DNA from: Bacteroidales bacterium
Lineage (GTDB): Bacteria > Bacteroidota > Bacteroidia > Bacteroidales > UBA932
Direction of reading: 5' to 3'
Assembly: GCA_017550525.1 (NCBI GenBank)
Contig: JAFZOU010000039.1
Location: 27,311 to 91,310, forward strand
DNA: 64,000 nucleotides
Shown here piece by piece: positions 498 through 55,386 of this stretch. Numbering within the stretch: position 1 is the stretch's first letter; each line of letters starts with the position of its first letter. The translations under genes and the position numbers were made by a program. The notes below the pieces were generated by a model that saw only the letters and a list, made by a program, of their open reading frames with translations, did no database searches and was not told where the DNA came from.

Positions 498-1447
498 TAA
501 CTACAGGATTCTTCGACGGTGTCCATCTTGGGCACCGTCGTGTGCTTGAGACAGTGGTCTCCTCTGCCCGTGAAAGGGGAGAGGAGGCTGTTGTGGTTAC
601 ATTCTGGCCTCATCCAAGGACTGTCCTTCAGCAGGACGCCAGGGATTTCAGGCTCCTCACTTCCCTTGAGGAGAAGAAGGCTCTTATTGAGGCTGTCGGC
701 ATAGACCGCGTGGAGGTTATTCCCTTCAACCGCCGCTTTGCTTCCCTCACTGCCGCAGAGTATCTTGACCTTCTTCAAACCCGTTACCGTGCTTCACTCA
801 TCGTGATGGGTTATGATAACAGAATCGGAAGTGACAGGAAGACGGCGGAAGAGATGTGTGTGTGTCAAACCGTCGGCTGCGCCGACCCCTCCCAAAGCAA
901 GCTTTGGGCCCCTCCCTCTTACAAGGCCGAGGGTGGCCATGGGTTTGACACACACACATCTCTCCCGCCTGTGGCAATAGTCAATGCCGTCATTCCCGGC
1001 CTGACCGGGAATCCTATTTCTTCCACCAGGATCCGAAAGGCACTGGAGGAAGGGGATGTGGAGGCGGCAAATGCTATGCTGGGATATAGTTACGGGCTGC
1101 ACGGAGTGGTGGTGGCCGGCAACAAGATGGGAAGGACCATAGGCTTTCCAACGGCAAATATCCAGCTTTATGAACCTTTGAAGCTGGTGCCGGAAAATGG
1201 CGTTTATGCCGTGGATGTTGAGGTGACGGGAAATCTGTTCAGGGGAATGTGCAATATCGGCACAAGGCCCACGGTGGGCGGGACTTCCAGAACCATTGAA
1301 ACCCACATACTTGGGTTCGATGAGGATATCTACGGCCTGCCGCTGAGGCTCCGTTTCCTCCGCCGCATCCGCGGTGAGCGCAAGTTCCCCTCCCTGGATG
1401 CCCTCCGCGCCCAGCTGGAGCAGGACCGGGAATTGTGCCGCCGATAG
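479..1447 (+). CDS. ribF: Bifunctional riboflavin kinase / FAD synthetase, carrying two palindromic insertions
   Basis: RibF phosphorylates riboflavin to FMN and adenylates FMN to FAD. The N-terminal nucleotidyltransferase signature GFFDGVHLGH is at residues 10-19 and the SSTRIR motif starts near 181. The C-terminal flavokinase domain shows GRTIGFPTAN and the conserved Glu of TIETHIL. Between the two adenylylation motifs, residues about 124-162 are encoded by a cloverleaf palindrome and residues about 171-179 (VIPGLTGNP) by a REP-like palindrome. Both are in frame. Homologues have an ordinary loop of about 35-40 residues there; here it is about 59. The ATG at 479 overlaps the preceding gene. 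The enzyme is presumably active because it is normally the only route to FAD, but that is inference. Confidence 0.93.
   Translation: MCKVAVVTTGFFDGVHLGHRRVLETVVSSARERGEEAVVVTFWPHPRTVLQQDARDFRLLTSLEEKKALIEAVGIDRVEVIPFNRRFASLTAAEYLDLLQTRYRASLIVMGYDNRIGSDRKTAEEMCVCQTVGCADPSQSKLWAPPSYKAEGGHGFDTHTSLPPVAIVNAVIPGLTGNPISSTRIRKALEEGDVEAANAMLGYSYGLHGVVVAGNKMGRTIGFPTANIQLYEPLKLVPENGVYAVDVEVTGNLFRGMCNIGTRPTVGGTSRTIETHILGFDEDIYGLPLRLRFLRRIRGERKFPSLDALRAQLEQDRELCRR
850..963 (+). repeat. Cloverleaf palindromic element, copy in ribF
   Basis: Perfect 22-bp inverted arms at 850-871 and 942-963 enclose three hairpins: 872-886 (GTCGGC/GCCGAC), 891-908 (CCCAAAGC/GCTTTGGG) and 925-938 (GGCC/GGCC). The core matches copies at 27001, 51776 and 54993, while most of the outer arm is unique to this locus. 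It is read through in frame as part of RibF. Confidence 0.9.
989..1014 (+). repeat. REP-like palindrome GTCATTCCCGGC..., copy in ribF
   Basis: An imperfect palindrome with a GTCAT 5' end and the stem TTCCCGG/CCGGGAA. It encodes VIPGLTGNP in RibF. Related copies are at 29542, 54331 and 63531, with more diverged ones at 29519 and 45367. Confidence 0.8.
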
Positions 1448-1448
1448 G

Positions 1449-1594
1449 TCCTTGCCGTGTTGACACGTATAACGCTTCTATGGCCGATTTCGATGCCGAC
1501 ACGGCAAGGAAATCGGCCTTTTTCCTGAAAAACCTTGCCGTGTTGGTCCCCAAAACGCCAATAGGGGCTTTCTGGCTGTCAACACGGCAGCGGG
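1449..1594 (+). repeat. Compound palindrome between ribF and greA
   Basis: This occupies most of the 287-base gap after ribF. A 13-bp outer stem TGCCGTGTTGACA (1453-1465 with 1577-1589) encloses an inner 10-bp stem GGCCGATTTC/GAAATCGGCC (1482-1491 with 1509-1518). A third partial copy of CCTTGCCGTGTTG lies at about 1537. No other copy was seen in the window. It may end ribF transcription. Confidence 0.7.
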
Positions 1595-1634
1595 GCCAAG
1601 ACGGGGAAGGTTTTGAATTGTAAAAAGTAATTGC

Positions 1635-1642
1635 TATCTTTG
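1635..1642 (+). promoter_or_regulatory. Promoter -7 box for greA
   Basis: TATCTTTG matches the Bacteroidota consensus TAnnTTTG. A TTTG-containing -33-like segment is about 20 bases upstream at 1611. The 5' leader to greA would be about 85 bases. Confidence 0.75.
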
Positions 1643-1734
1643 CATACACATAAACTGCGACGGCCTCAAAGGGTCGTTGCAACTTTTTTTGACAACGTAA
1701 AACGTAAAAAGAAAAAATAAAAGGTAAATCTAAT

Positions 1735-2202: not shown

Positions 2203-2203
2203 G

Positions 2204-2608: not shown

Positions 2609-3710
2609 CCGCATTATCCTCGGTGCCATCCTTTGTACCGTACTCTTTTCCTGCGACCCTGAGAAAACTTACATCAACGGAGTCCTCAAGGACGGCCCTG
2701 ATTCTGAGCTTATAGTGAAGCTCCTGGACGTGAACCGTTTCCAGGTGCTGGATACCCTCAGGACAGAGGAAGACGGCGCCTTCTACTACACCATGGACAT
2801 CAAGGAGGCCCAGCCTGAGTTCGTTTACCTTTATTATAAGGACCGCCAGGTGGCGTCTCTTCTTCTTGAGAAAGGAGACGTTGTGATTGTGGAAACCGAT
2901 ACCCTTGGCGCCTACAAGGTGGAGGGGAGTGAGGAAACTCTCAATCTCCAGAAGGTGGAGAATGCCTACAACGCCTGTGTAAGGGATATTTCCCGTATCA
3001 TTACAAACCCTCTTAAAGGTAATGCCGCCATCTCCCGCAGGTACATCGCCTATTACCGCGACAGGGTGCAGTATGTGATGGCTCATCCGTATTCCCTCAC
3101 CGTTGTGCCCGTGTTCTTCCAGAAGATCAACGACGGTCTTCCTGTGTTTTCGCAGCCCACAGACGGACTTCTGATGCGTAACATATGTGACTCCCTCAAA
3201 ACTGTCTATCCTGATTCCAAGTACGTTAAGGCCCTTGAGAAGGAGGCCGATAAACGTGTGTCGGAGATGGAGTTATCGGCCCGTATCAATCAGGCGCAGG
3301 AGGTTGGATACATTGATATCAATCTCCCCGGCGTGGACGGTAAGAAGGTGAAACTCTCTGAGGTTGAGTCCAAGGTTACCATGGTATACTTCTGGGCCAC
3401 TACCGCAGAGCAGAAAATGTTCAACCTGGATGCCCTGAAACCCCTTTATGAGGAGTTCCATGACAAGGGCTTCGAGATTTACGCAGTGTCCCTGAATGTG
3501 GACAAGGCGGAATGGGGCAAGGCAATGCGCAACCAGAATCTTCCCTGGGTTAATGTGTGCGACATTCGCGGAATCGAATCCCCGTACATCGGCCTTTATG
3601 GCGTGACAAGTCTTCCCATGGCCTGGTTCCTGGTTGACGGCGAAATTGACGCCGCCGCCAATGTGCGTAATGCGGCCGATATCCGCAAGTATCTCAAGAA
3701 GAAACTTTGA
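2595..3710 (+). CDS. Thioredoxin-fold (TlpA/AhpC-TSA-like) lipoprotein lacking CxxC
   Basis: The N-terminus is a lipoprotein signal peptide ending in LFSC, so the protein should be lipid-anchored in the periplasm or outer membrane. Residues about 25-120 resemble the DUF4369 domain common in Bacteroidota redoxins, and the C-terminal 140 residues form a thioredoxin-like domain (INLPGVDGKKVKLSE). Where TlpA proteins carry WCxxC, this one reads YFWATTAEQK, with no cysteine pair. It is therefore unlikely to be a thiol-disulfide reductase and may be a binding or scaffold paralogue. The start at 2595 is chosen because it gives the signal peptide. Confidence 0.8.
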   Translation: MKNFSRIILGAILCTVLFSCDPEKTYINGVLKDGPDSELIVKLLDVNRFQVLDTLRTEEDGAFYYTMDIKEAQPEFVYLYYKDRQVASLLLEKGDVVIVETDTLGAYKVEGSEETLNLQKVENAYNACVRDISRIITNPLKGNAAISRRYIAYYRDRVQYVMAHPYSLTVVPVFFQKINDGLPVFSQPTDGLLMRNICDSLKTVYPDSKYVKALEKEADKRVSEMELSARINQAQEVGYIDINLPGVDGKKVKLSEVESKVTMVYFWATTAEQKMFNLDALKPLYEEFHDKGFEIYAVSLNVDKAEWGKAMRNQNLPWVNVCDIRGIESPYIGLYGVTSLPMAWFLVDGEIDAAANVRNAADIRKYLKKKL

Positions 3711-3714
3711 TTTG

Positions 3715-3824
3715 CTGTCGAATGAAAGCTGCTGATTATCAGCGACTTATTTAAAATGCCCGCAATGAATTCATTGCGGGCATTTTGTGTAACTATCTAT
3801 GAATCAGTTAGTTCCTTTTTGCGG
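3715..3824 (+). repeat. 110-bp palindrome (family E), copy 1; likely bidirectional terminator
   Basis: A perfect 22-bp palindrome CCCGCAATGAATTCATTGCGGG at 3759-3780 is flanked by A and T runs. It sits between convergent genes, the lipoprotein and tsaB. The left end CTGTCGAATG matches copies at 36307, 38287 and 40371. The right end is not conserved and runs into the last codons of tsaB, so the boundary is assigned from the fixed 110-bp length. Confidence 0.8.
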
Positions 3825-4496: not shown

Positions 4497-4499
4497 AGA

Positions 4500-5018: not shown

Positions 5019-5042
5019 ATTGCGTATGAGAGTTAAAATGAT

Positions 5043-5050
5043 TATCTTTG
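5043..5050 (+). promoter_or_regulatory. Promoter -7 box for ileS
   Basis: TATCTTTG lies 40 bases before the ileS ATG at 5090. Its position argues that the in-frame ATG at 5048, inside the box, is not the translation start. Confidence 0.75.
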
Positions 5051-5089
5051 TACCCTAAAAATCGGCAATGCAAAATTAGGAAAAATTAT

Positions 5090-8509: not shown

Positions 8510-8513
8510 GAAT

Positions 8514-9508: not shown

Positions 9509-9516
9509 TTTTTTCC

Positions 9517-9524
9517 TATCTTTG
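9517..9524 (+). promoter_or_regulatory. Promoter -7 box for tRNA-Ser(TGA)
   Basis: TATCTTTG ends 11 bases before the first base of the tRNA. Confidence 0.75.
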
Positions 9525-9535
9525 CACTCCCGTTT

Positions 9536-9620: not shown

Positions 9621-9623
9621 CTC

Positions 9624-9651
9624 AGAAGCAACGCAATAATGCGTTGCTTCT
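9624..9651 (+). terminator. Rho-independent terminator after tRNA-Ser
   Basis: The stem AGAAGCAACGCA with TGCGTTGCTTCT has a 4-base loop and is followed by a short T-rich tract. Confidence 0.75.
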
Positions 9652-13213: not shown

Positions 13214-13221
13214 ATGCCGAT

Positions 13222-13333
13222 GTGGTGGGGCTTAAATGGCTGAAACACAGCGTGTTATAAAGGTTTCTACCAGAACTGGTTCTGGTAGAAGATTGTGTAA
13301 GCGCCTGTGAATCAGTGAACTAACCTCCACCGC
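13222..13333. repeat. 112-bp palindrome (family D), copy 1
   Basis: Termini GTGGTGGGG and CCTCCACCGC and a central stem TTTCTACCAGAA/TTCTGGTAGAA match the copies at 59331 and 60789, and the length is identical. It lies 42 bases from the 3' end of the minus-strand HTH gene. Confidence 0.85.
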
Positions 13334-13375
13334 CAGAGGAGAACTCTTGGTGGTGGAAGGAGCGATAGAGGGTAT

Positions 13376-26154: not shown

Positions 26155-26976
26155 TTAGTCTTGTTTTAGTGCGTACACTTGCTCCCTAACGTATTGCGCC
26201 CACTGGGTGTCTGATTTCTCAGAGGTGAAGGTTTGCCAGGGGATAGGTTTCCCGATGACCATCTTGAAATGCTGCCCGCGGTAGCCAAATAGTTCATCCG
26301 GGAGGGTGAACATCTCAAGATTCAGTTTTATCTTGAAAAACTTGCGGAAAGCCGCAATACGGTAGAAGCGTTTTGAGTTATGGCCAGAGAACCAGACGGG
26401 GATGACATCTCTTTTTGTCTCACGGCTTTTGGTGATGAAGGTTTTCTTCCATTCAAGGTCCTGGACAATGCCGTCAACCTTCCTGGAGCATACTCCGGCG
26501 GGGAAAAACAGAACCTGGCGGTCACTGTGGAAGGCGTCGTTGAGAAGGCCTGCAAGTTCCCTTGCCTGGGCACCCATCTTGTTCACGGGGATGAGGTAAT
26601 TGGCAAGCTGTTTGAGGTTGAGGAGGAAGCTGTTGGCCGGGGTGATGACCTTGTCATTATACTTCCTTGCCAGGAAACCAAGTTCAACTCCGGCATCGGC
26701 CCCGCCAAGCGGATGATTGGAGGCGAAGGTGAAAAGGCCCTCTGCGGGAATATTCTCCTTGCCGATAATGTCAACCGTTACGTCAAGGTCCTCAAAGAAG
26801 CAGTCCACGAAGTCTGCGCCCACCTTTCCCTTACGGAAATTGCGGTTGAAATCTTCCTCGTGGATGAACTTGCGGAGGAAGCTCATAACTGGCCGCGGCA
26901 ACAGTTTGCCGTGGTTCACTTTTCTCACAACAGCATCAGTGTCTATGAGAATGCTTTGGTTCTGGGGCATTTCCAT
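26155..26976 (-). CDS. glsA: O-acyltransferase of glycine-lipid synthesis (GlsA-like)
   Basis: The protein has about 273 residues of the lysophosphatidate acyltransferase (PlsC) type. The acyltransferase motif is ASNHPLGGADAG, followed by VNKMGAQA and a FFPAGVCSRK block. It would add the second fatty acid to N-acyl glycine at the inner face of the inner membrane. A GTG at 26982 coincides with the -7 box, so an ATG at 26976 or 26970 is more likely the start. It is the first gene of a run of five tightly packed genes (glsA, glsB, GH3, nlpC, epimerase) with gaps of 6 bases or less. Confidence 0.82.
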   Translation of the reverse strand: MEMPQNQSILIDTDAVVRKVNHGKLLPRPVMSFLRKFIHEEDFNRNFRKGKVGADFVDCFFEDLDVTVDIIGKENIPAEGLFTFASNHPLGGADAGVELGFLARKYNDKVITPANSFLLNLKQLANYLIPVNKMGAQARELAGLLNDAFHSDRQVLFFPAGVCSRKVDGIVQDLEWKKTFITKSRETKRDVIPVWFSGHNSKRFYRIAAFRKFFKIKLNLEMFTLPDELFGYRGQHFKMVIGKPIPWQTFTSEKSDTQWAQYVREQVYALKQD

Positions 26977-26981
26977 ATCCA

Positions 26982-26989
26982 CAAAGATA
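26982..26989 (-). promoter_or_regulatory. Promoter -7 box for the gls operon
   Basis: TATCTTTG on the minus strand, directly upstream of the candidate ATGs of glsA. The mRNA would be nearly leaderless. Confidence 0.55.
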
Positions 26990-27000: not shown

Positions 27001-27119
27001 AATAAAAGAGACATTCTCTTCTCAAACCCATTGCCACCCTCGGCATTGTAAGAGGGAGGGGCCCACGAAGTGGGAGGGGTCGCGAAGCGACGGTTTGAGA
27101 AGAGAATGTCTCTTTTATT
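27001..27119 (-). repeat. Cloverleaf palindromic element, intergenic copy between pnp and glsA
   Basis: Perfect 28-bp arms (27001-27028 and 27092-27119) enclose hairpins TGCC/GGCA (27032-27045), CCCAC/GTGGG (27062-27074) and GTCGC/GCGAC (27079-27091). Relative to the ribF copy, all three stems have changed on both sides so that pairing is kept. The right arm ends 5 bases from the pnp stop, so the element may also end pnp transcription. Confidence 0.9.
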
Positions 27120-27124: not shown

Positions 27125-29464
27125 TTAGAATACGTCGGGCTCGTTGTTTTTGGGCTCATCGTCCTGGAAGCGGGGCTTGCGGGGGCCGTCATTGCGCTTT
27201 TCGCGGCGGTCGCCGTCCCTGCGGGGACCACGGTCACCATCGCGGCGGGGACCACGGTTTCCACCGTCCTTGCGGTCACCGTCACGGCGAGGTCCGCGCT
27301 CACGCTTTGCGGGCTCCACATAGCCTTCGGGCTTCTCCTGGAGGGCGCGCATGGAAAGGCGCATCTTGCCGGTCTTGGCGTCAATCTCAAGGAGTTTCAC
27401 ATCTACCTCGTCACCAACCTTCAGGACATCCTCAACTTTGTCGGTCTTGGTCCAGGCAATCTCGCTCACGTGGAGGAGGCCTTCCTTACCGGGGAGGATC
27501 TCGATGAAAGCGCCGAACTCAAGGATGCTCACCACTTTGCCGTGGTAAACCTGGCCGGCCTCAGGAACTGCGCAGATGCCCTTGATGCGCTCAAGGGTTG
27601 CATCCATGGCAGCCTTGTCAGTGCCGAAGATATCCACAACACCCTTGGTGGTGCCGTCTCCGTTGTCAACTTCATCGATGGTGATGGTTGTGCCGAATTC
27701 CTTCTGCATACCCTGGATGGTTTCACCACCCTTGCCGATAACTGCACCGATGAACTCTGCAGGAATCTCAATCTGGACCATGCGGGGAACGAAGGGCTTG
27801 AAGTCCTCACGGGGCTCGGGGATGGTCTTGAGCATCTCACCCATGATGTGGAGGCGTCCCTGACGGGCCTGCTCCAGGGCTTTTTCAAGGACGTCATAGG
27901 ACAGGCCGTCCACCTTGATGTCCATCTGGGTGGCGGTGATACCGTCCTTGGTGCCGGTCACCTTGAAGTCCATATCGCCAAGGTGATCTTCGTCACCGAG
28001 GATATCGGTGAGGATGGCGTAGCGGTCGTTGGGGCGCTCTGTGTCAGTGATAAGACCCATTGCAACACCTGCGACGGGCTTTTTGATCTTCACACCTGCG
28101 TCCATGAGGGCCAGGCAGCCGCCGCATACGGAGGCCATGGAAGATGAACCGTTGGATTCAAGGATATCGGAAACTACGCGAACTGCGTAAGGGAATTCAG
28201 GGGCTGTGGGGATGACGGGCTTGAGGGCACGCATTGCAAGGTTTCCGTGGCCGATCTCGCGGCGTCCGGTGCTGCGCTGAGGCTTTGCCTCGCCGGTAGC
28301 GAACGGAGGGAAGTTGTAGTGAAGGACAAACTGTTGGTCGTCCTGGATGAGGACCTCGTCCATCTCCTTCATATCCATCTTGGTGCCCAGGGTAACTGTT
28401 GCCAGGGACTGGGTTTCACCGCGGGTGAAGATGGCGCTGCCGTGGGCGCAGGGGAGGTAGTCAACCTCGCACCAGATGGGACGTACCTCATTGGTGGCAC
28501 GGCCGTCAAGGCGCCTGCCCTCGTCAAGGACAAGGTTACGCATCGCTTCCTTCTCTACGTCATGGTAGTAGCGGTCAATCATTGCGCCCTTCAGTTCAAG
28601 GTCTTCCTCAGAGAACTGGGCCTTGAATTCGTCACGGATGGCATTGAAGCCGTCCTCGCGCTCGTGCTTGGGCTTTGCGCTCTTCGCAAGCTCGTAGCAC
28701 TTAGCATAGCAGGCCTCGCGGACTGCGGTCTTCAGGGCCTCATCTTCCTCATCGTGAGGATAGTCCCTCTTGGTGCCGTCGGTGCCAAGCTCGTGCATGA
28801 GCTCCTTCTGCACGCGGCAGTGCTTCTTGATCTCTTCGTGGGCGAACTTGATGGCTTCCAGCATATCGTGCTCTGAAACCTCGTTCATCTCACCTTCAAC
28901 CATCATGATATTCTCCTCGGTGGCGGCAACCATAAGGTCAAGATCGGCCCTCTTGTTGTCCTCGAATCCGGGGTTGATTACAAACTGACCATCAATGCGG
29001 GATACTCTTACCTCAGATACGGGACCGCCGAAGGGGAGGTCGCTGGAGGCAAGGGCTGCAGATGCTGCAAGGCCTGCAAGGGCGTCCGGCTGGATGTCTT
29101 TTTCGGCCGATATAAGCATCACGTTAACAAATACTTCCAGGTGGAAGTCTTCCGGCCACAGAGGGCGGATGGGGCGGTCTATGAGACGTGCGATGAGGAT
29201 CTCATAGTCGCTGGGACGGCTTTCCCTCTTGAGGAAACCTCCGGGGAAACGGCCGGCGGCATAATACTTTTCACGGTAATCCACGGTGAGGGGCATGAAG
29301 TCTGTGCCTTCCTTAACCTCAGTTGCGCAGGTTACTGTAGCGAGCAGCATGGTGCCGCCCATTTTCACTACGGCAGAGCCTGCGGCCTGTTTGGCCAGCT
29401 TGCCGGTCTCGATCTCGATAACCCTTCCGTCGGGCAGTTCGATGGTCTTTTTGATAATGTTCAT
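27125..29464 (-). CDS. pnp: Polyribonucleotide nucleotidyltransferase (PNPase)
   Basis: PNPase degrades RNA phosphorolytically 3'->5'. The protein has 779 residues: two RNase PH domains ([18 protein letters not shown] in the first, [14 protein letters not shown] and [13 protein letters not shown] in the second), then a KH domain ([18 protein letters not shown]) and an S1 domain ([20 protein letters not shown]). About 65 C-terminal residues are an Arg/Gly/Asp-rich disordered tail with repeated GPRRDGDR units, not present in E. coli PNPase. It lies downstream of rpsO on the same strand, the classic rpsO-pnp order. Confidence 0.96.
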
Positions 29465-29518: not shown

Positions 29519-29541
29519 TGTCATCCCTTTTTGGGTATCTT
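29519..29541 (+). repeat. Degenerate REP-like palindrome
   Basis: GTCATCCCTTTTTGGGTATCT keeps the GTCAT and ATCT ends of the REP-like family with a CCC/GGG stem. It is adjacent to a better copy. Confidence 0.55.
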
Positions 29542-29568
29542 GTCATCCCCGACCCGATCGGGGATCTC
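29542..29568 (+). repeat. REP-like palindrome
   Basis: Ends GTCAT and ATCTC with the stem ATCCCCGA/TCGGGGAT around CCCGA, in the gap between pnp and rpsO. Confidence 0.8.
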
Positions 29569-34924: not shown

Positions 34925-35356
34925 ATGAAAATCGGCATTTGCAATGACCACGCAGGCGTGGAGTACAAGTTCAAACTGGTGAAGATGCTTCAGAAAAGGG
35001 GTATCGAGGTTGTGAATTACGGCACTGACACAGAGGCTAGCGTAGACTACCCGGATTATGCCCACAGGCTGGCCCAGGCCGTGGAGGGCGGGGAAGTGGA
35101 CCTTGGAATAGCGCTCTGCGGCACCGGCAACGGAATGGCCATCACCCTCAACAAGCACCAGGGAATCCGCGCGGGCCTTGCGTGGGGCACTGCCATCGGC
35201 CATCTTGTGGCTCAACATAACAACGCCAACGTCCTTGTGCTTCCGGCACGCTTCATCTCCTATCGCCTTGCATCGGCCATAGTGCGTGAATGGCTTGACA
35301 CTCCCTTCGAGGGCGGCCGCCATCAGAAACGCATAGACAAAATGCCCTGCAGATGA
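34925..35356 (+). CDS. rpiB: Ribose-5-phosphate isomerase B
   Basis: RpiB interconverts ribose 5-phosphate and ribulose 5-phosphate in the pentose phosphate pathway. The protein has 143 residues of the RpiB/LacA/LacB family with the N-terminal MKIGICNDHAGVEYK (phosphate-binding DHAG) and the active-site loop LCGTGNGMAITLNKHQGIRA. The position of the usual catalytic Cys is in ALCGTGNG. The ATG at 34925 is chosen over 34871 because it starts the beta-strand of the family. Its stop overlaps the truB start by 4 bases (ATGA). Confidence 0.92.
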   Translation: MKIGICNDHAGVEYKFKLVKMLQKRGIEVVNYGTDTEASVDYPDYAHRLAQAVEGGEVDLGIALCGTGNGMAITLNKHQGIRAGLAWGTAIGHLVAQHNNANVLVLPARFISYRLASAIVREWLDTPFEGGRHQKRIDKMPCR

Positions 35357-36306
35357 ATTTTACCTCAGACATCGCGGATTACCCGGAGGGAATAGTCCTT
35401 GCGGTGGATAAGCCGTACAGGTGGACATCGGCCGATGTAATCCGTAAACTCAAGTACGCCGCCATCAAGCACTTCGGGAAGAAAAACCTGAAGGTGGGGC
35501 ACGCCGGCACGCTGGACCCTCTGGCTACGGGCGTGCTGCTGGTGTGTATCGGCAATGCGTGCAAACGGGCGCAGGAACTGCAGGACCACCCCAAGGAATA
35601 TATCGCGCGTATACGCTTTGGCGCCACAACTCCTTCCTATGACCTTGAGAAGGAGGTGGACCGCCGATTCCCCTATGAGCATATCACGGCTTCATCCGTC
35701 CGTGACGCCCTGCCGGCATTCCTTGGCGAGCAGGAGCAGGTGGCTCCGCTCTTTTCCGCCAAAAGCGTAGACGGTGTCCGTGCGTACGAACTTGCCCGGA
35801 AACTCTACCGCTCAGGCCGATTCTCGGAACTGGACTCCGCCGCCCTGGAAACCCTCCAGCGTAACAAGATCGTGATCTCTGAACTGGAATTGCTGGACTT
35901 CTCTGCGGGTGATGGAGATAGAGTCCGGGGGGCTTGTCCACCCCCGGACAAGTGTAGGGGGAGGGGCCCGCAGACTGAAGGGACGGTGAGCAAGCTTGCT
36001 TGGTCACCGGCACTGCAGGCTGTGGGAGGGGCCGGAGTTGAGCGAAGCGAAACGGAGTCCCCCCGGACTCTATCTCCATCACCATCGGCACGCATCAACG
36101 TAGCTGATACATCGGCCCTGGGGCTGCCGGAGGCGGTTATTCGGATTGCGTGCAGCAAAGGCACCTACATCCGGGCGTTTGCGCGTGACCTTGGGGAGGC
36201 GCTGGGCTCCGGAGGGCACCTCTCCGGCCTCATCCGCACCTGCAGCGGCTCCTTCCGTCTGGAGGATGCCCTCTCCCTTGACGCCGCCCTCGCACTGCTG
36301 CAATAG
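35353..36306 (+). CDS. truB: tRNA pseudouridine-55 synthase, with a large palindromic insertion
   Basis: TruB makes pseudouridine 55 in the T loop of tRNAs. The protein has 317 residues. The catalytic Asp 55 is in GHAGTLDPLATG; further motifs are KEYIARIRFGATTPSYD, APLFSAKSVDG (variant of the conserved PxYSAxK) and CSKGTYIRAFARDLG. Residues about 186-244, lying between LELLDFSA and the strand before CSKGTYIR, are encoded by a cloverleaf element and have no counterpart in the family. Without them the length would be about 255, near that of short TruB proteins. The insertion is in frame and in a surface loop between strands, so activity may persist. Confidence 0.94.
   Translation: MNFTSDIADYPEGIVLAVDKPYRWTSADVIRKLKYAAIKHFGKKNLKVGHAGTLDPLATGVLLVCIGNACKRAQELQDHPKEYIARIRFGATTPSYDLEKEVDRRFPYEHITASSVRDALPAFLGEQEQVAPLFSAKSVDGVRAYELARKLYRSGRFSELDSAALETLQRNKIVISELELLDFSAGDGDRVRGACPPPDKCRGRGPQTEGTVSKLAWSPALQAVGGAGVERSETESPRTLSPSPSARINVADTSALGLPEAVIRIACSKGTYIRAFARDLGEALGSGGHLSGLIRTCSGSFRLEDALSLDAALALLQ
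35908..36083 (-). repeat. Cloverleaf palindromic element (long subtype), copy in truB
   Basis: Perfect 25-bp arms (35908-35932 and 36059-36083) enclose the hairpin CTTGTCC/GGACAAG (35933-35952), a GGGGGAGGGGCCCGCAG block, a GGTGA/TCACC hairpin near 35993-36008 and a GTTGAGCG/CGAAAC hairpin near 36035-36053. On the reverse strand GGCCCCTCCC and GGGCCCCTCCC line up with the short-subtype core. The half copy at 63806 matches it over 51 bases with three differences. Confidence 0.88.
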
Positions 36307-36416
36307 CCGTTGAATGGAACCAATTGAGCATCAATGGTTTATGTAAAATGCCTGCAACGATTTCATTGCGGGCATTTTGCATAATAGCCAGTATATCAAT
36401 GATTTACATTCGACGG
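36307..36416. repeat. 110-bp palindrome (family E), copy 2
   Basis: It begins on the base after the truB stop. Ends CCGTTGAATG and CATTCGACGG are inverted repeats; the central stem is TGCCTGCAA.../TTGCGGGCA flanked by A/T runs. It probably terminates truB. Confidence 0.88.
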
Positions 36417-38286: not shown

Positions 38287-38396
38287 CTGTAGAATACAAG
38301 TTTTTGATAGTTAGCACGTTACACAAAACACCCGCAATGAAATTATTGCGGGTGTTTTGTGTAAACAGCTGGTAATCAATCCGTTCTATTCCACGG
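38287..38396. repeat. 110-bp palindrome (family E), copy 3; bidirectional terminator
   Basis: The central stem ACACCCGCAAT/ATTGCGGGTGT is flanked by ACAAAA and TTTTGT. It lies between convergent gltX and the fRMsr-MsrA gene. Its right end overlaps the last residues and stop codon of the latter (stop at 38386). Confidence 0.87.
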
Positions 38397-39446: not shown

Positions 39447-40376
39447 ATGAAGAGTCAGAAACGGCCATTTCAGAGAAATGTGCTAAACCATTGCTATCAA
39501 CGTACAGTTGATGGCGGAGTATTGTTTTACAGCCAACTGGACTATCTGGTCTGGTTCACTATAGTATGCACTGTTGCCAGAAAGCGTAGAGTACGCATTC
39601 TGGCGATGTGCCCTATGCCTGACCACACTCATTTCTCAATTGAGGCGGCCTCACTGTCAGAGTTGGCGGCTTTTATGAGGGATTATTCCAGTATTTTTGC
39701 AGCTGAACATAATAAGTTGTGCCATCGTTCCGGTCCTTTGTTTGACGGACGCTTTGGCAGTGCCATCAAAAACACGGATAAAAAAGTACGCACCAACCTG
39801 ATATATGTGTGGAACAATCCTCCGGAGCGTAAGCTTGTTGTCAAAGCCGAAGAATACCGCTGGAACTTCCTGGCTTATGCAGTTTCAGATCATCCATTCT
39901 CCAATAAGCTGGTAATAAGGAATGCACGCTGGCCAATGCAGAAAGCCGTGAAAGAAATAAAGGCAATGTTCAAAAAAGGCCAATATCTTGCTTATGCCCT
40001 GCTCAAACGCCTGTTTAATCCATTGACTCAGGAAGAAAAGCAGCAGCTCACGGATTATATTATCTCAATTTACAATGTAATTGATTACAGGGCAGCACTT
40101 AGTTTCTTCAACAGTTATGATGATCTTCTGGTCGCTGTACATTCAACAACCGGAGCAGAGCATGACATCAAGGAACTTGACGTTGGAAAGAGTGACCATC
40201 ATTATAATACAATGGTAAAAACTATCCTGAAAGAACTTAAGCCAAACGACATTCACGATATTCTGGGCTACACCAAAGAAGAAAAGTATGAGGTCTTTAA
40301 GCTCCTCCGAAAACACTCATACGCTATGTCGGAGCAAATAGCAAAATTCCTTCATATGAATATGGTTAAGCTGTAA
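39447..40376 (+). CDS. RAYT: REP-associated tyrosine transposase (Y1, HUH type)
   Basis: The protein has 309 residues. The HUH metal-binding motif is in PMPDHTHFSIE (His 60 and His 62). A downstream block GPLFDGRFGSAIKNTDKKVRTNLIYVWNNP carries the likely catalytic Tyr 120, and the typical N-terminus HCYQRTVDGG is present. The C-terminal 150 residues form a helical domain common in Bacteroidota members. RAYTs are single-copy relatives of IS200/IS605 TnpA that process REP palindromes as single-stranded DNA. The stop codon of this gene lies inside a 110-bp palindrome (40371-40480), as expected for a RAYT and its cognate repeat. Confidence 0.9.
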   Translation: MKSQKRPFQRNVLNHCYQRTVDGGVLFYSQLDYLVWFTIVCTVARKRRVRILAMCPMPDHTHFSIEAASLSELAAFMRDYSSIFAAEHNKLCHRSGPLFDGRFGSAIKNTDKKVRTNLIYVWNNPPERKLVVKAEEYRWNFLAYAVSDHPFSNKLVIRNARWPMQKAVKEIKAMFKKGQYLAYALLKRLFNPLTQEEKQQLTDYIISIYNVIDYRAALSFFNSYDDLLVAVHSTTGAEHDIKELDVGKSDHHYNTMVKTILKELKPNDIHDILGYTKEEKYEVFKLLRKHSYAMSEQIAKFLHMNMVKL

Positions 40377-40480
40377 AATGTAAACGCTTGAATATATGCT
40401 AGTTATGTAAAATGCCCGCAATGATTTTCTTGCGGGCATTTTACATAACACGCTGTGTGTCAACTGATTGTGTTCAACGG
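40371..40480. repeat. 110-bp palindrome (family E), copy 4, at the RAYT 3' end
   Basis: It starts CTGTAAAATG, so it contains the last codon and stop of the RAYT gene, and ends TTCAACGG. The central stem AATGCCCGCAA/TTGCGGGCATT lies within the longer GTAAAATGCCCGCAA/TTGCGGGCATTTTAC. It lies between convergent RAYT and ftsZ. Confidence 0.9.
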
Positions 40481-40522
40481 CACAAGGGGCTGCAGTAGTA
40501 AGGCACCACTGTCTGGGGCCGA

Positions 40523-45394: not shown

Positions 45395-45400
45395 AAAACC

Positions 45401-47916: not shown

Positions 47917-47921
47917 ATATA

Positions 47922-49256
47922 CTAGAGGTTACGGACGGCAGCCTTGAACTGCTCTCCGCGGTCTTCGTAATTCTTGAAAAGGTCAAAGCTGGCGCAGCAG
48001 GGGGAGAGGAGCACCACGTCTCCGGCATCGGCCATTGCGGCAGCCTTCTGCACGGCCTCGCGGGCGCTCAGGGCATCCTCCATACGGGATACCATGCCGC
48101 CAAAGGCCTCATGGATCTTCTTGTTGTCCACACCAAGGCAAACGATGCCCTTCACTTTCTCCCTCACAAGGTCATTCAGAACGCTGTAATCGTTGCCCTT
48201 GTCAGTGCCGCCAAGGATCCACACCACGGGGCGTTTCTGGCACTCAAGGGCGTACCAGGCGCTGTCTACGTTTGTGGCCTTGGAGTCATTGATATAGAGG
48301 ACGTCCTTGATGCTCAGGACAGGCTCCAGACGGTGCTCTATGGGCTTGAAGGTGGCAAGGGAGTTACGGATAACGTCACTCTCAATGCCTGTTGCCTTAG
48401 CCGCCAGGGCTGCTGCCATGGAGTTATACACATTGTGCTTTCCGCCAAGGGCAAGGCTCTCCAGGAACACGTCTGTCTCTTCCTCGTCCACGCGCACAAT
48501 CATCTTGTTCTCACGGATGAAGGCGCCCTGCTCCAGTTCCTTCTCCTGGGAGAAGGGGAGCATCTTGCAGCGCAGGACTATCTTTGAGAGGTGTCCAACG
48601 GTAATCTCGTCGTCGGAGTCAAAGATGAAGCAGTCATCCTCACGGAGATTGCGGGTTATGTTGAACTTGGCATTGACGTAGTTCTCCATCTTGTGGTCGT
48701 AGCGGTCAAGATGGTCGGGGGTGATGTTGGTGATGATGGCAATGTCCGGACGGAAGTCACGGATGTCGTCCAGCTGGAAACTGGAGATCTCAAGCACGTA
48801 GTAGTCAAAGTGCTCGGTAGCCACCTGATAGGCATAGCTCTGGCCGATATTTCCGCCGAGGCCCACGTTGAGGCCCGCATTCTTCAGGAGGTAGTAGATG
48901 AGGGATGTGGTTGTGGTCTTGCCGTTGGATCCGGTGATGCAGATCTTCTTTGCAGAGTCAAATCGGCTTGCAAATTCAATCTCTGAGATAACGGGGATGC
49001 CGTTTTCCTTCACCTTCTGCACCATGGGCACGGTGCCGGGGATGCCGGGGGATTTCACCACCTCATCGGCATTAAGGATGAGCTCCTCCGTATGCTGACC
49101 CTGCTCAAAGGGGATGTCCCACTTGCGGAGGGTATCGGCATAACTATCCTTGATCTGTCCCTTGTCGGAGAGGAACACATCAAATCCTTTCACTTTTGCC
49201 AGAACTGCAGCGCCAACACCTGATTCTGCGCCGCCTAAAACAACTACTCTTGCCAT
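47922..49256 (-). CDS. murD: UDP-N-acetylmuramoyl-L-alanine--D-glutamate ligase
   Basis: MurD adds D-Glu to the growing stem peptide. The protein has 444 residues. The N-terminal VVLGGAESGVGAAVLAKVKG, the ATP loop GSNGKTTTTSLIYYLL, NITPDHLDRYDH and the C-terminal LLSPCCASFDLFKNYEDRGEQF are family motifs. It lies between mraY (2-base gap) and ftsW (5-base gap). Confidence 0.97.
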   Translation of the reverse strand: MARVVVLGGAESGVGAAVLAKVKGFDVFLSDKGQIKDSYADTLRKWDIPFEQGQHTEELILNADEVVKSPGIPGTVPMVQKVKENGIPVISEIEFASRFDSAKKICITGSNGKTTTTSLIYYLLKNAGLNVGLGGNIGQSYAYQVATEHFDYYVLEISSFQLDDIRDFRPDIAIITNITPDHLDRYDHKMENYVNAKFNITRNLREDDCFIFDSDDEITVGHLSKIVLRCKMLPFSQEKELEQGAFIRENKMIVRVDEEETDVFLESLALGGKHNVYNSMAAALAAKATGIESDVIRNSLATFKPIEHRLEPVLSIKDVLYINDSKATNVDSAWYALECQKRPVVWILGGTDKGNDYSVLNDLVREKVKGIVCLGVDNKKIHEAFGGMVSRMEDALSAREAVQKAAAMADAGDVVLLSPCCASFDLFKNYEDRGEQFKAAVRNL

Positions 49257-49258
49257 AA

Positions 49259-50551
49259 CTATCTAATCTTCAATAGTGCCAATGTACTAACAGCCAGTAT
49301 GATTCCCACAATCCAGAAACGGATGGTGATCTTTGCCTCGTGCTGGGCGGGAACCGGTTTGGGGAAAAGGACGGGGCCTTCCGGGGCCTTCTTGTCCTGA
49401 TAATGGTGGTGGAGGGGAGTCATGCTCCAGATACGCCTTCCGGTGCCGTACTTCTTACGCGTGTACTTGAAATAGAACCTCTGCATGAGGACGGAGAGGC
49501 TCTCCATGAAGAAAATGCCGCAGAGGAGGGGCAGGAGCAGCTCCTTACGCATAAGGACTGCGCTCACGCCAATCACGCCGCCAATTGTGAGACTTCCCGT
49601 GTCTCCCATGAATACCTGGGCGGGGAAAGAGTTGTACCACAGGAATCCGATGAGTGCCCCCACAAAGGCGCTCATGAAGATGGCAATCTCTCCACTGCCG
49701 GGGATGTACATGATGTTAAGGTAGTTAGAGTCTATCAGGTTGCCCCCCAGCCAAGCCAGGATGCCTAATACAACTCCAACAATGGCCGATGTTCCCGCCG
49801 CAAGTCCATCCAACCCGTCAGTGAGATTGGTTCCGTTGGAGCAGGCGGTAATTACCAGCACTATCATCAGAACATATATTGCCCATTTTGCGTACCAGCC
49901 CCAGGTGCCCTTCACGGGGGAGAGCCAGCGATAATCAAACTCGTGGTTCTTTACAAAGGGGATGGTAGTCTTTGTACTTTTCACAACATCTTCCTCCTGA
50001 TATCGGCCACTTGTAACGGTGGTCTCGGTCTCCAGGGTGCGCTCTACGCTCTCCTTGACCTCCACTTTCTCACGCACCACGATGTCCGGGCTCATCCAGA
50101 CGGTGAGGCCCACAATGAATCCCAGCACTATCTGGCCAAGGAGCTTGCCTTTCTCAGACATACCCTCCTTGTTGTGCCTGAACACCTTTATATAGTCATC
50201 GGCAAAACCAAGGGCACCGCACCAGAGCGTGCTCACAAGGAGAAGGATAACGTAGATATTGGTTAGGTCGCACCAGAGGAGTACGCCGGTCAGGATGCTC
50301 AGGATAATGATTATTCCGCCCATGGTGGGAGTGCCCTTCTTCTGGATCTGGCCCTCCAGGCCAAGGTCACGGACAGTCTCCCCAATCTGCTTTTTCTGCA
50401 GGAGGCGGATAATCTTCTTGCCGGCAATCATGGCAACAAGAACGGCCGTGACGGCCGCCGCCATGGCGCGGAAGCTAAGGAAGTTAATGAGTCCCATTCC
50501 GGGGAAGTCTGCCCCCAGGCCCTCAAGATAGTGAATGAGGTGGAAGATCAT
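49259..50551 (-). CDS. mraY: Phospho-N-acetylmuramoyl-pentapeptide transferase
   Basis: MraY makes lipid I at the inner membrane. The protein has 430 residues with about ten membrane helices. Catalytic motifs are FADDYIKV, NGTNLTDGLDGLAAGTSA and the HHH-type MTPLHHHYQ. Between helices, residues about 155-205 form a charged extra segment (ETETTVTSGRYQEEDVVKSTK) that is absent from E. coli MraY (360 residues) but usual in Bacteroidota. The start overlaps the murE stop by 4 bases. Confidence 0.97.
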   Translation of the reverse strand: MIFHLIHYLEGLGADFPGMGLINFLSFRAMAAAVTAVLVAMIAGKKIIRLLQKKQIGETVRDLGLEGQIQKKGTPTMGGIIIILSILTGVLLWCDLTNIYVILLLVSTLWCGALGFADDYIKVFRHNKEGMSEKGKLLGQIVLGFIVGLTVWMSPDIVVREKVEVKESVERTLETETTVTSGRYQEEDVVKSTKTTIPFVKNHEFDYRWLSPVKGTWGWYAKWAIYVLMIVLVITACSNGTNLTDGLDGLAAGTSAIVGVVLGILAWLGGNLIDSNYLNIMYIPGSGEIAIFMSAFVGALIGFLWYNSFPAQVFMGDTGSLTIGGVIGVSAVLMRKELLLPLLCGIFFMESLSVLMQRFYFKYTRKKYGTGRRIWSMTPLHHHYQDKKAPEGPVLFPKPVPAQHEAKITIRFWIVGIILAVSTLALLKIR

Positions 50552-52059
50552 TGCATTATAAGTTTAAAGGTTTCAGTCACAATTTCTTTCTCGTCAAAAT
50601 GACGTTTTTCACGGCCCACTATCTGGTAAGTCTCGTGGCCCTTTCCTGCAAGGAGGATGGTGGCGCACTCCGGAGCCGTGAGGATGGCGGTGCGGATAGC
50701 CTCCCTGCGGTCTTCAATCACAATGGACTTTGCAAGGCCCTTGGTGGTGAGGCCTGTTTTGATTTCATCAATAATGGCCGATGGCACCTCCGTACGGGGG
50801 TTGTCGGACGTGATCACAAGGCGGTCGGCAAGGTCCTCGGCAATCTTTGCCATCTCAGGGCGCTTGGTGCGGTCTCGGTCTCCGCCGCAGCCGAACAGGC
50901 ATATGAGCTGCCTCTTGGGCGCAATTGCGCGGAGAGTCTTAAGGACATTCTCCAGGGCATCCGGAGTGTGGGCGTAGTCGATGATAACGCTAAGGCCCCT
51001 TGGACCGTTGAGGTTCTCAAGCCTTCCCGGAGCCGGCTCCAGGGAAGAAAGCGCAATGAGAGTCTCCTCCGGCTTTGCTCCAAGGCAAACCGCCGCAGAG
51101 TAGATGGCAAGAAGGTTATATGCGTTGTGCTCGCCAATGAGCCTGCACCAGACCTCGGTTCCGTCCACCTTCAGGAGCATCCCGTCAAAGCTCTGCTCCA
51201 TTACGCGGGCGGTATGATCCGCAAGGCCCTTGACGGAATAGGACACCACTTTGGCCGATGTATTCTGCACCATCACGCTGCCGTGCTTGTCGTCCGTATT
51301 GATAAGGGCAATTGCCTTTGCGGGCAAGTTGTCAAAGAACAGCTTCTTGCAGCGGAGGTACTCTGCAAACGTCTTGTGGTAGTCCAGGTGGTCGTGGGTA
51401 AGGTTGGAGAAAATGCCCATTGCAAACTCCAGCCCCGTCACGCGGTCCTGCTCCACGCCAATGGAGCTGACCTCCATGAAGCAGTACTGACAGCCCTTAT
51501 CCACCATCCTTGCCAGAAGGCTGTTAAGGGTGATGGGATCCACTGTAGTGTTTGAAGTCTCCAGCCTCTCGTCGTCCACATAATTTGCAATAGTGGACAG
51601 CAGACCGCAGCTGTAACCCATGCTCTTGAAAAGCCTGTACAGCAGCGTCACGGTAGTGGTCTTGCCGTTAGTTCCGGTAATCCCCACCAGAGTCAGCTTC
51701 CCGGACGGATGCCCGTAATACTCATCTGCAATCAGCGCCAGTGCCTTCCGGCTGTTCTCCACGACCTCGAACTCTATTCCGGAGGGAGTGCACACCCCGG
51801 AATCGTCGGCTGCGCCGACCCCTCCCACTGCCTGCGGCAGCGGGCCCCTCCCTCTTACGCGGCCGAGGGTGGCCACGGATTCCGGGGTGTGTACTCCCTC
51901 CGGAATCTCTTCGCACACGATGCCTGTGGCACCGTTGTCGATGGCGGCCTGGATATAGGCGTGACCGTCACTTTCATGGCCGCGTACGGCTATGAAAAGC
52001 GCTCCGGGAACAACCTTCCTGGAATCGGCAGTAATCAATGTGTAATCCCTATAGTTCAT
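50548..52059 (-). CDS. murE: UDP-MurNAc-tripeptide ligase MurE, with a palindromic insertion
   Basis: MurE adds the third stem residue; the motif DNPRTE indicates meso-diaminopimelate. The protein has 503 residues. The ATP loop is GITGTNGKTTTVTLLY, and NLTHDHLDYH is present. Residues about 52-95, between CEEIPEG and IEFEVVENSRKAL in the N-terminal domain, are encoded by a cloverleaf element in frame. Homologues have a loop of only a few residues there. The inserted part reads TLGRVRGRGPLPQAVGG in the middle and is flanked by the near-repeats GVHTP and GVCTP. Because the gene is essential and uninterrupted, the insertion must be tolerated. Confidence 0.96.
   Translation of the reverse strand: MNYRDYTLITADSRKVVPGALFIAVRGHESDGHAYIQAAIDNGATGIVCEEIPEGVHTPESVATLGRVRGRGPLPQAVGGVGAADDSGVCTPSGIEFEVVENSRKALALIADEYYGHPSGKLTLVGITGTNGKTTTVTLLYRLFKSMGYSCGLLSTIANYVDDERLETSNTTVDPITLNSLLARMVDKGCQYCFMEVSSIGVEQDRVTGLEFAMGIFSNLTHDHLDYHKTFAEYLRCKKLFFDNLPAKAIALINTDDKHGSVMVQNTSAKVVSYSVKGLADHTARVMEQSFDGMLLKVDGTEVWCRLIGEHNAYNLLAIYSAAVCLGAKPEETLIALSSLEPAPGRLENLNGPRGLSVIIDYAHTPDALENVLKTLRAIAPKRQLICLFGCGGDRDRTKRPEMAKIAEDLADRLVITSDNPRTEVPSAIIDEIKTGLTTKGLAKSIVIEDRREAIRTAILTAPECATILLAGKGHETYQIVGREKRHFDEKEIVTETFKLIMQ
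51776..51906 (+). repeat. Cloverleaf palindromic element, copy in murE
   Basis: 29-bp arms with one mismatch (51776-51804, 51878-51906) enclose hairpins at 51805-51819 (GTCGGC/GCCGAC), 51824-51844 (CCCACTGCC/GGCAGCGGG) and 51861-51874 (GGCC/GGCC). It lies in reverse relative to murE, so the gene reads the opposite strand from the one read in ribF. Confidence 0.9.
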
Positions 52060-53978: not shown

Positions 53979-54316
53979 CTTTTCTTTATCACCGTTGCGG
54001 GTTCCTTTGGCATTGCGGCCTCGGAGCCCAGTTTCTTAAGTCTTGTTTCTGTGGCCGATGCACTCTTTATCTTCACCAGCGCGGCCTCGCTTTCAGTATG
54101 ATGGATCCTCAGTTCCTCGATGGCCGCCTTGTTGGCGCCGGCGCGGGTGAGGGTCTTGTCCACTTTGAGGCTCAGCATAATTGAGAGCCACATGAGGAGG
54201 AACACGTACATCACGTGGATGTAGTATTTGTCGGCCCTTACCTTCAGGAGAAGGTCTCCGTTCCTGAGGGCCCTGTATGCGTTACGCACTGAAAGCCAGA
54301 AATTCTTTACGCTCAT
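53975..54316 (-). CDS. ftsL: FtsL-like divisome protein
   Basis: The protein has 113 residues. A cytoplasmic start is followed by one membrane helix (about 32-50, YIHVMYVFLLMWLSIMLSL), then a periplasmic helical region with heptad-like spacing (ELRIHHTESEAALVKIKS). This is the topology of FtsL, and the gene has the FtsL position, overlapping rsmH and ftsI by 4 bases on each side. Sequence conservation is weak, as is usual in the family. Confidence 0.82.
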   Translation of the reverse strand: MSVKNFWLSVRNAYRALRNGDLLLKVRADKYYIHVMYVFLLMWLSIMLSLKVDKTLTRAGANKAAIEELRIHHTESEAALVKIKSASATETRLKKLGSEAAMPKEPATVIKKR

Positions 54317-55386
54317 TGCCCGGCCCTCCCGTCATGCCCGACTTGATCGGGCATCTCTTTCTTTTGTGCTATCCTTAACTTGGCGCTTCTGGCGCGGGTG
54401 TTGCCGGCAATCTCTTCCTCTGCGGGGAGGATGGGCTTGCGGTTCACGGCCTCCAGGGGGGTATCGGCCCGTCCAAAGACGTCCTGCTGCAGGATTCCTT
54501 CAACGTTGCCGGTTTTGATGAAGTTCTTCACCATACGGTCCTCAAGGCTGTGGTAGGTGATTACCACAAGGCGGCCGCCGGGTTTAAGGCTTGCGGCTGC
54601 GCCTTCCAGGAACTTCTCTAGGGAGCGCATCTCTCCGTTCACCTCTATCCTCAGGGCCTGGTAAATCTTTGCAAGGACCTTGTGCTCCGCGCCCTTTGGC
54701 AGCACTTTGGCTACCGCGCGGTCAAGGTCTCCGGTGGTTGCAATGGGGCGGGCCTCCGCGATGAGCCTTGCAACGTTACGGGCACCGTCCACCTCGCCGT
54801 AGAGTTTCAGGATGCGCTCAAGGTCATCGGCCTCATAAGTGTTCACAACGTCTGCGGCGGTGAGCTTTGCGCCCTGGTTCATACGCATATCAAGGGGCGC
54901 TTCCTCATACCTGAAGCTGAATCCGCGCTCTGCGGTGTCAAACTGATGGGAGCTTACGCCAAGATCGGCCAGGATGCCGTCGAACACTGCGGGTCCGGAG
55001 GAGACAGACTCTCCAGAATCCGTGGCCACCCTCGGCCGCGTAAGAGGGAGGGGCCCGCCGGCTTGCCGGTGGGAAGGGTCGCGAAGCGACGATTCGGGAG
55101 AGTCTGTTTCCTCCGAACCGGCCTCACGACTGAGTTGTTCGGCGTAATTCTCTATGAAGCGGAAGTTGTTGTGGATGAGGGTGAGCCTGGGGTCCTTGAG
55201 GGCTCCCTCTATGGCATCGATGTCACGATCGAAGGCGATGACTCTCCCGTCACCGGATAAGCGTGAAAGTATGGCAGCGGTGTGTCCACCGCCTCCGAAA
55301 GTGGCATCTGCGTATGTTCCGTTGGGATTTGTGATGAGTGAGGAAACACTTTCCTCAAGCAGCACGGGGATATGATATTCTGACAT
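54313..55386 (-). CDS. rsmH: 16S rRNA m4C1402 methyltransferase, with palindromic insertion and REP-coded tail
   Basis: RsmH (MraW) methylates C1402 in the ribosomal P site. The protein has 357 residues. The SAM motif is ADATFGGGGHTAAIL; ILADLGVSSHQFD and the C-terminal ITYHSLEDRMVKNF are diagnostic. Residues about 90-132, between FIENYAEQ and VFDGILADLG, come from a cloverleaf element (read as SSLRDPSHRQAGGPLPLTR in the middle). The last residues (MPDQVGHDG at 344-352) are encoded by a REP-like palindrome. Homologues are about 300-310 residues long. It overlaps ftsL by 4 bases. Confidence 0.95.
   Translation of the reverse strand: MSEYHIPVLLEESVSSLITNPNGTYADATFGGGGHTAAILSRLSGDGRVIAFDRDIDAIEGALKDPRLTLIHNNFRFIENYAEQLSREAGSEETDSPESSLRDPSHRQAGGPLPLTRPRVATDSGESVSSGPAVFDGILADLGVSSHQFDTAERGFSFRYEEAPLDMRMNQGAKLTAADVVNTYEADDLERILKLYGEVDGARNVARLIAEARPIATTGDLDRAVAKVLPKGAEHKVLAKIYQALRIEVNGEMRSLEKFLEGAAASLKPGGRLVVITYHSLEDRMVKNFIKTGNVEGILQQDVFGRADTPLEAVNRKPILPAEEEIAGNTRARSAKLRIAQKKEMPDQVGHDGRAGQ
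54331..54357 (+). repeat. REP-like palindrome forming the end of rsmH
   Basis: Ends GTCAT and ATCTC with the stem ATGCCCGA/TCGGGCAT around CTTGA. Read on the minus strand it encodes MPDQVGHDG just before the RsmH stop. Confidence 0.8.
54993..55118 (-). repeat. Cloverleaf palindromic element, copy in rsmH
   Basis: 28-bp arms with three mismatches (54993-55020, 55091-55118) enclose hairpins at 55024-55037 (GGCC/GGCC), 55054-55073 (CCCGCCGGC/GCCGGTGGG, one G-T) and 55078-55090 (GTCGC/GCGAC). It lies in the same orientation relative to its gene as the ribF copy. Confidence 0.9.

Follow-up and report, generated by a model that had tools for sequence, protein, structure and literature searches.

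The best-known palindromes in protein-coding sequence are those of Rickettsiales. The Rickettsia palindromic elements (RPEs) are described as palindromes of 105 to 146 bp that occur between genes and in frame within conserved protein genes (PMC2229807), and the relevant part of another account has them losing repeat identity over time (PMC6649704). Among repetitive extragenic palindromes (REPs), passages of one report describe copies within tnpAREP genes of subclass 2.4 that keep the reading frame and a subclass 2.6 tnpAREP, mostly of Bacteroidetes, that adjoins "atypical secondary structures" (PMC6006769). Here, we analyze a family of structured palindromic elements in a 64,000-nucleotide stretch of DNA from a Bacteroidales bacterium (UBA932; assembly GCA_017550525.1, contig JAFZOU010000039.1, positions 27,311 to 91,310 of the forward strand), hereafter called the window and numbered from its first letter. 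With slightly more confidence than doubt, we interpret the family as non-autonomous selfish DNA elements that work like RPEs, with the G-rich single strand as the mobile form and with outer arms kept paired by template switching.

In-frame copies in ribF, truB, murE, and rsmH

The window contains five full copies (119 to 183 bp) and one half copy. Four of the full copies lie in frame within ribF, truB, murE, and rsmH, the fifth is intergenic, and in the open reading frames (ORFs) read from the window, every host ORF stays open across its insert; these coordinates and through-running ORFs agree with the original prediction, an earlier note on this DNA that had listed the same copies and host genes. 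Copy 1 (844 to 969, plus strand) lies in the ribF ORF (479 to 1447, plus strand). On the plus strand, it consists of a left outer arm (844 to 871) that pairs with the right outer arm (942 to 969) with one mismatch, hairpin 2 (872 to 886; GTCGG..CCGAC), hairpin 3 (891 to 908; CCCAAAG..CTTTGGG), a CCCTC strand (914 to 918), and hairpin 4 (922 to 941), whose loop GAGGG (929 to 933) is the pseudoknot partner of that strand. Copy 2 (27001 to 27119, minus strand) lies between ORFs 26155 to 26982 and 27125 to 29464, with 28 of 28 arm positions paired. Copy 3 (35903 to 36085, minus strand), of the CTTGTCC subfamily, is in truB (35353 to 36306, plus strand), copy 4 (51776 to 51906, plus strand) in murE (50548 to 52059, minus strand), and copy 5 (54989 to 55122, minus strand) in rsmH (54313 to 55386, minus strand). 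The half copy (63806 to 63856, minus strand), of the CTTGTGC form, comprises hairpin 4, the pseudoknot strand, and one side of hairpin 3.

The host products matched Pfam families FAD_syn and Flavokinase (RibF), TruB_N, Mur ligase domains, and MraW methylase (RsmH); judging by the names of its PDB matches, the Mur ligase with copy 4 is MurE. The RsmH chains 3tka and 1wg8, which we take to be from E. coli and Thermus, lack residues 84 to 134 and 86 to 132 of the window protein, respectively, and this is what the proposed comparison with insert-free orthologues would look for. RsmH homologue alignments stop at residues 83 to 85 and restart at 133 to 135, and those of MurE end at 51 to 54 and restart at 91 to 95.

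Residence inside genes is common beyond the window. By a mechanical test of 155 copies, 78 sat within an ORF that continued for at least 40 codons on each side, 33 did so partly, 35 were at ORF edges, and 9 had no open frame. More than one frame was comparable in 12 of the 78, and one copy (L038) was assigned to the strand antisense to ribF. Stretches of equal length drawn at random fell within such ORFs in 537 of 775 draws (69%) versus 50% for the elements, so gene interiors are somewhat avoided. The 66 copies with a clear frame use all six frames (phases 13/12/13 with the gene on the C-rich strand of the element and 6/12/10 with the gene on the other strand), and both orientations are common (38 versus 28); the earlier claim of both orientations and more than one frame thus extends to all three phases. 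All 10 own-genome host ORFs that were scanned had a Pfam family (aminotransferase, two family-2 glycosyltransferases, TilS, MFS, methyltransferase, DapF, alanine racemase N, M20 peptidase, and CYTH).

In most copies, the core can be read through in all three frames of one strand and in two of its complement. In 67 of the 106 cores tested (from 130), all three C-strand frames were open, compared with 24.3 after shuffling, an excess that counts as one property of the family because the copies are related. With such a frame-open core, an insertion would lengthen a tolerant, probably surface-exposed loop by some 30 to 60 residues, presumably leaving the protein functional.

A four-way junction with a pseudoknot

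The core fold is a four-way junction formed by the outer stem and three hairpins, to which a pseudoknot is added. The original prediction had likened each copy to a tRNA cloverleaf. An outer stem closing inner hairpins was indeed found, and the four-way junction with its pseudoknot had been missed; a tRNA-like cloverleaf is rejected, as the element has no tRNA match, a different branch order, and a pseudoknot. At the Rfam 15 gathering score, the window yielded four tRNAs only and none on the element, and loci L001, L009, and L016 yielded no match, the best near match on an element having an E value of 0.033, far below gathering.

When four copies were folded as DNA, z scores ranged from −4.0 to −11.9, and none of 200 shuffles of each was equally stable; the truB copy folded as RNA gave −7.8, again with 0 of 200 shuffles as stable. 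An alignment of 24 of 25 own-genome copies (L024 was misaligned and excluded) had 91.9% of 776 pair cells paired, in comparison with 28 to 43% with slid partners, and double-sided changes in 20 of 33 pairs. The pseudoknot, in which the hairpin-4 loop pairs with the strand preceding hairpin 4, was found by comparing subfamilies side by side. It occurs in six sequence versions (CCCTC/GAGGG, CCCCC/GGGGG, CCCGT/ACGGG, CCCGC/GCGGG, CCCAT/ATGGG, and TCCTC/GAGGA), across which complementarity of at least 5 nt was present in 174 of 192 distinct contexts. In an alignment of 33 of the 57 distinct sequences found (every rare version and 14 of the 38 sequences of the commonest), all pseudoknot cells were paired, with double changes in three of five pairs. 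As the pseudoknot pairs in every version aligned, we consider the element to be a four-way junction with a pseudoknot. The compensatory changes for which the original prediction had suggested looking are strong in both alignments. Its single shared core needs qualification, since a subfamily that includes both the truB copy and the half copy has a different fourth hairpin (CTTGTSC..GSACAAG).

Outer arms change in concert and cores invert

The long outer stem noted in the original prediction is copy specific; the core alone is common. The outer arms, mostly 20 to 30 nt, are near-perfect inverted repeats inside each copy and differ between non-orthologous copies. Mean identity over arm positions 6 to 21 was 0.36 (3,916 pairs), meaning that terminal inverted repeats are not common to copies. 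Loose motifs nevertheless recur in 89 arms: GGGTAT 20 times (0.6 expected), GGAGG 16 times (2.8 expected), and CCGGA 18 times (1.6 expected).

In 14 orthologous pairs, 280 of 355 arm columns were unchanged, 49 had changed on both sides, and 26 on one side, with 10.8 double changes expected if the sides changed independently. These pairs were hand-chosen as alignable, which favors pairs with alignable arms, and the rsmH pair (G000/L075) may represent two separate insertions; without it, 329 columns remain, with 44 double and 23 single changes. Because the copies are related, P values computed as if arms or cores were independent err on the optimistic side. As the arms vary between sites yet change in matching pairs, the elements look like selfish DNA tolerated by their hosts.

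Inversion at a fixed site, of the whole element or only its core, was seen in three orthologous pairs. The core is inverted between homologous arms in L107/L138 and L082/L124, and at the site shared by L177 and L268, 151 bp, arms included, are 94.7% identical once one sequence is inverted. In the nearest genome seen (G149), arm bases at six sites were identical (151 of 151 per side) between 300-bp flanks of 86 to 93% identity, and the truB element was likewise kept; at the ribF site, the arms had diverged with pairing retained, and the inverted L177/L268 site also belongs to this comparison. Five sites had other content (L013/L266, L014/L267, L020/L260, murE, and rsmH), the MurE loop of G149 consisting of repeats and the RsmH loop of another sequence. 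At the compared sites, the elements are for the most part kept or else replaced wholesale.

Template switching is described in yeast as homogenizing arms and inverting spacers, according to the relevant part of one report (PMC8604942), and as maintaining hairpins in a passage of another (PMC8794818). Polymerase template switching between arms could maintain complementarity after insertion, would also flip the core, and may extend the palindrome into host sequence, so that joint arm change, inversion, and outward growth would be explained together.

The arms could instead arise as the element inserts, with hairpin-primed synthesis copying one host flank in inverted form, in which case one arm would be old host sequence and the other its inverted copy. 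We regard this as rather unlikely, though it would account for arms that differ between non-orthologous copies around cores that stay alike. In murE, the N-side arm reads IPEGVHTP, and element-free relatives have VPEGVDTT (L179) and IPEG (L283); this arm reading rests on comparison by eye, as the murE copy was scored in the wrong frame in the BLOSUM62 comparison. In the N-side arm of RibF, the four outermost residues scored +5.5 in mean BLOSUM62 over 15 element-free targets, with the inner four negative in 13 of 15, and an aminotransferase site (+7; L020) and a family-2 glycosyltransferase site (+9; L010) have one target each. Since the outermost arm residues at these four sites resemble element-free relatives, the palindrome seems to extend into host sequence. 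Against inverted copying, the arm motifs GGGTAT, GGAGG, and CCGGA are shared across genes, neither arm is seen in the relative at L049/L055, L077/L054, or rsmH, and the signal over all sites is weak and two-sided (N side, −0.13 versus −2.7 in the control, n = 94; C side, −0.91 versus −2.78, n = 115). With evidence this mixed, we did not adopt inverted target duplication as a general rule and retain it as a rival.

A bolder combination, to which we give slightly less credence than to inverted copying as such, is a mobile element defined by its single-strand shape (four-way junction plus pseudoknot) whose integration would generate the outer arms as an inverted copy of the flanking host DNA; each insertion would thereby become a one-off perfect palindrome around a core that can invert and is neutral to reading frame. 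We know of no integration that writes its own arms among REPs, miniature inverted-repeat transposable elements (MITEs), or RPEs.

Wobble pairs point to the G-rich strand

Arm mismatches indicate which strand folds. In 96 of the 130 genome-collection copies (those with arms of at least 19 nt and at most four mismatches), mismatches on the C-rich strand from position 6 outwards comprised 38 A.C, 5 G.T, and 23 others (P = 2.5 × 10−7 for A.C versus G.T); in the own genome (25 copies), there were 17 A.C and 4 G.T. An A.C mismatch on the C-rich strand is a G.T or G.U wobble on the G-rich strand. Among copies with clear frames, the A.C:G.T ratio was 20:1 outside ORFs, 11:2 within ORFs on the C-rich strand, and 3:2 within ORFs on the opposite one; in another count, the corresponding ratios were 18:1, 14:2, and 6:2.

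These ratios bear on the idea that the element is a structured RNA acting in host mRNA, as a regulator, a ribozyme, or a self-removing intron-like element. Its elaborate conserved fold, pseudoknot, and compensatory changes would suit such a role. A constraint on host mRNA predicts the opposite sign for genes on the C-rich strand, where the wobbles fall on the other strand (11:2), so a folded G-rich single strand is the simplest explanation. In addition, ORFs commonly contain the element in either orientation, every one of the six frames is open and in use, no Rfam family matched the element at the gathering score, and an open frame would be needless if the element removed itself from mRNA. We find an mRNA role improbable, and structure in host mRNA is disfavored as the main constraint by the frames, orientations, and wobble asymmetry, weak as the last is (3:2) in one orientation. 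The wobbles suggest a folded single strand that is G-rich rather than host mRNA, and they point to no particular protein. Alternatively, a strand-biased mutation process may be the source of the asymmetry.

Insertion sites are hot spots

We searched ribF and truB in 151 genomes of the genus and fetched 30 loci for each. Loops with both flanks placeable held this element, its CCCGT/ACGGG subfamily, unrelated palindromes, or little. Element sites are length-variable protein positions with turnover between species. The original prediction had treated inserts at the same sites in distant genera as a sign of ancestral protein loops. As the loops hold other palindromes or repeats in related species, they are hot spots, and a shared site does not equal one ancestral insert. 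In the truB loop of L242, L244, L245, L250, L251, and L254, palindromes have other cores (e.g., AAAAGAAAAGGCCGATGC in L242 and L244), so several palindrome families share one site. Short GTCATTCCCGG-type repeats occur in the window at 988 to 1015 (in ribF, directly after copy 1), 29541 to 29568, 54330 to 54357, and 63530 to 63557, and L181 and L191 have similar sequences in their MurE and RsmH loops, respectively. Loci L035, L043, L045, L056, and L119 each have two model matches in opposite orientations within about 300 bp, one of each pair being weaker, which suggests nested or double insertions.

The same loops raise the possibility that nothing moves, and that palindromes arise in hypervariable loops by slippage and template switching while recombination spreads the cores. 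The other palindromes and tandem repeats that these loops hold in relatives fit this idea, as do the arm homogenization and spacer inversion by template switching known in yeast (PMC8604942, in the part cited above). Set against it is the presence of one core, pseudoknot included, at about 30 sites in the own genome, some intergenic and others in various genes, and we rate this explanation as improbable.

Distribution and a candidate mobilizer

A model built from the 24 own-genome copies found 35 matches at an E value of ≤1 (some partial) and 32 at ≤0.01 in the own genome (2.38 Mb). The family was present in 32 of 37 genomes of the genus, with up to 45 matches per genome in different genes and between genes, and in none of 24 relatives from other families. 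In an overlapping order-wide sample with strict filters, 4 of 198 genomes, including the own genome, were positive; the 3 of 197 others were G276 (same family; 5 matches), G178 (1 match), and G328 (another family; 17 matches), and G175, a further member of the genus, had no match under these filters. An exact pattern retrieved at least 117 stretches; among the matches listed, all were from Bacteroidales or Bacteroidia, and many carried ruminant names. The host range would accordingly seem to be some Bacteroidales, many from ruminant guts.

The candidate mobilizer in the window is an IS200-like Y1 transposase gene (39447 to 40376, plus strand; Pfam Y1_Tnp, 23.6 bits, cutoff 23). We infer that it is of the RAYT type (REP-associated tyrosine transposase, or TnpAREP), and its link to the element is correlative only. 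Y1_Tnp genes occur in 27 of the 37 genomes of the genus, and their counts correlate with element counts (Spearman coefficient, 0.45; P = 0.005, uncorrected for phylogeny and completeness), with a mean of 3.2 copies in the 10 genomes without a Y1_Tnp match and 15.5 in the 27 with one. That a Y1 transposase moves the element is possible but somewhat doubtful.

Other palindromes are present in the window. One family, with GCCCGCAAT-type stems, occurs at 3710 to 3806, 36306 to 36384, 38289 to 38394, and 40370 to 40482, and two of these copies bracket the Y1_Tnp gene in a REPtron-like layout. Another, with GCGGTGG..TTAA ends, occurs at 13220 to 13357, 56006 to 56119, 59326 to 59442, and 60789 to 60905; in G149, the copies at 59326 and 60789 are missing from regions whose flanks align at about 90%, which marks this family as mobile or readily lost. 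At 48858 to 48990, about 133 bp within a long ORF are missing from G149, through either an assembly error or a real deletion.

Weighing the proposed mechanism

For non-autonomous selfish elements, we envisage movement, now or in the past, as a folded single strand, which would be the G-rich one and probably single-stranded DNA, recognized by an HUH/Y1 (RAYT-type) transposase at the replication fork. Several observations weigh against this interpretation. Among the pairs listed (murE, rsmH, ribF, truB, and others), no clean empty site at high identity was found, so no target duplication or exact boundary is defined. Pair types beyond the first were no more frequent than in shuffles (42 versus 41.6 in the 24-copy alignment and 14 versus 14.6 in the 33-sequence alignment), and certain proposed pairs are frequently unpaired (the innermost one in hairpin 2 in 18 of 24 copies and the third one in hairpin 4 in 21 of 33 sequences). 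The seven G000-G149 sites with identical arms fit neither neutral decay nor fast correction alone, and the wobble asymmetry shrinks in copies with the gene on the other strand, where data are few. As for the mobilizer, copies number 9 in G001 (74% complete) and 14 in G014 (70% complete), neither of which has a Y1_Tnp match, G006 has six Y1_Tnp matches and 2 copies, and G010 has three and no copies. Only 1 of 10 fetched Y1_Tnp loci had a strong element match, about 1.3 kb away, plus one at an E value of 0.45, and the palindromes on both sides of the window gene are of another family. Finally, viral contigs (searched with the exact pattern) and plasmids and phages (BLAST of copy 1) contained no match, and a phage or plasmid passenger is rejected on the same searches.

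Comparison with known systems

The family is large and well sampled in Bacteroidales, with orthologous sites at about 80 to 97% flank identity. It makes testable how selfish DNA is tolerated in important genes, how inverted arms keep their pairing, and how proteins accommodate long inserts, and its sites map permissive positions of MurE, RsmH, RibF, and TruB.

The terminal repeats of MITEs are common to copies. The outer arms here differ from copy to copy, though short motifs recur. Passages on MITEs such as ERIC/RU nevertheless describe elements that are likewise small, non-autonomous, and sometimes read in frame (PMC2229807). REPs and their RAYTs offer a second likeness, as non-autonomous DNA hairpins thought, in the part of the report cited, to be processed as single strands (PMC6006769). 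The element described here is much longer than a REP, is pseudoknotted, and has half of its copies inside ORFs; a GT[AG]G foot lies within the first 6 nt in just 4 of 103 arms, and copies do not flank the 10 Y1_Tnp loci examined. Coding palindromes of nematomorph mitochondria share perfect inverted repeats in coding sequence and concerted arm change, but they are mitochondrial, and the cited portion of that report does not mention a shared core family (PMC6649704).

RPEs remain the closest parallel, as the original prediction had held: both are structured palindromic families in frame within conserved protein genes (78 of 155 copies in ORFs here), a likeness drawn from published descriptions. 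Some copies here are longer, up to 183 bp. RPEs and their Wolbachia counterparts belong to another phylum, and the present family differs in its pseudoknotted four-way junction, its copy-specific arms that change in concert, and its inversion at fixed sites. Our searches of open-licence papers turned up no account of comparable in-frame palindromic elements from Bacteroidota, in agreement with the novelty first proposed. Elements of this type have a precedent in Rickettsia; what is new here lies in the fold, the arms, and the inversion.

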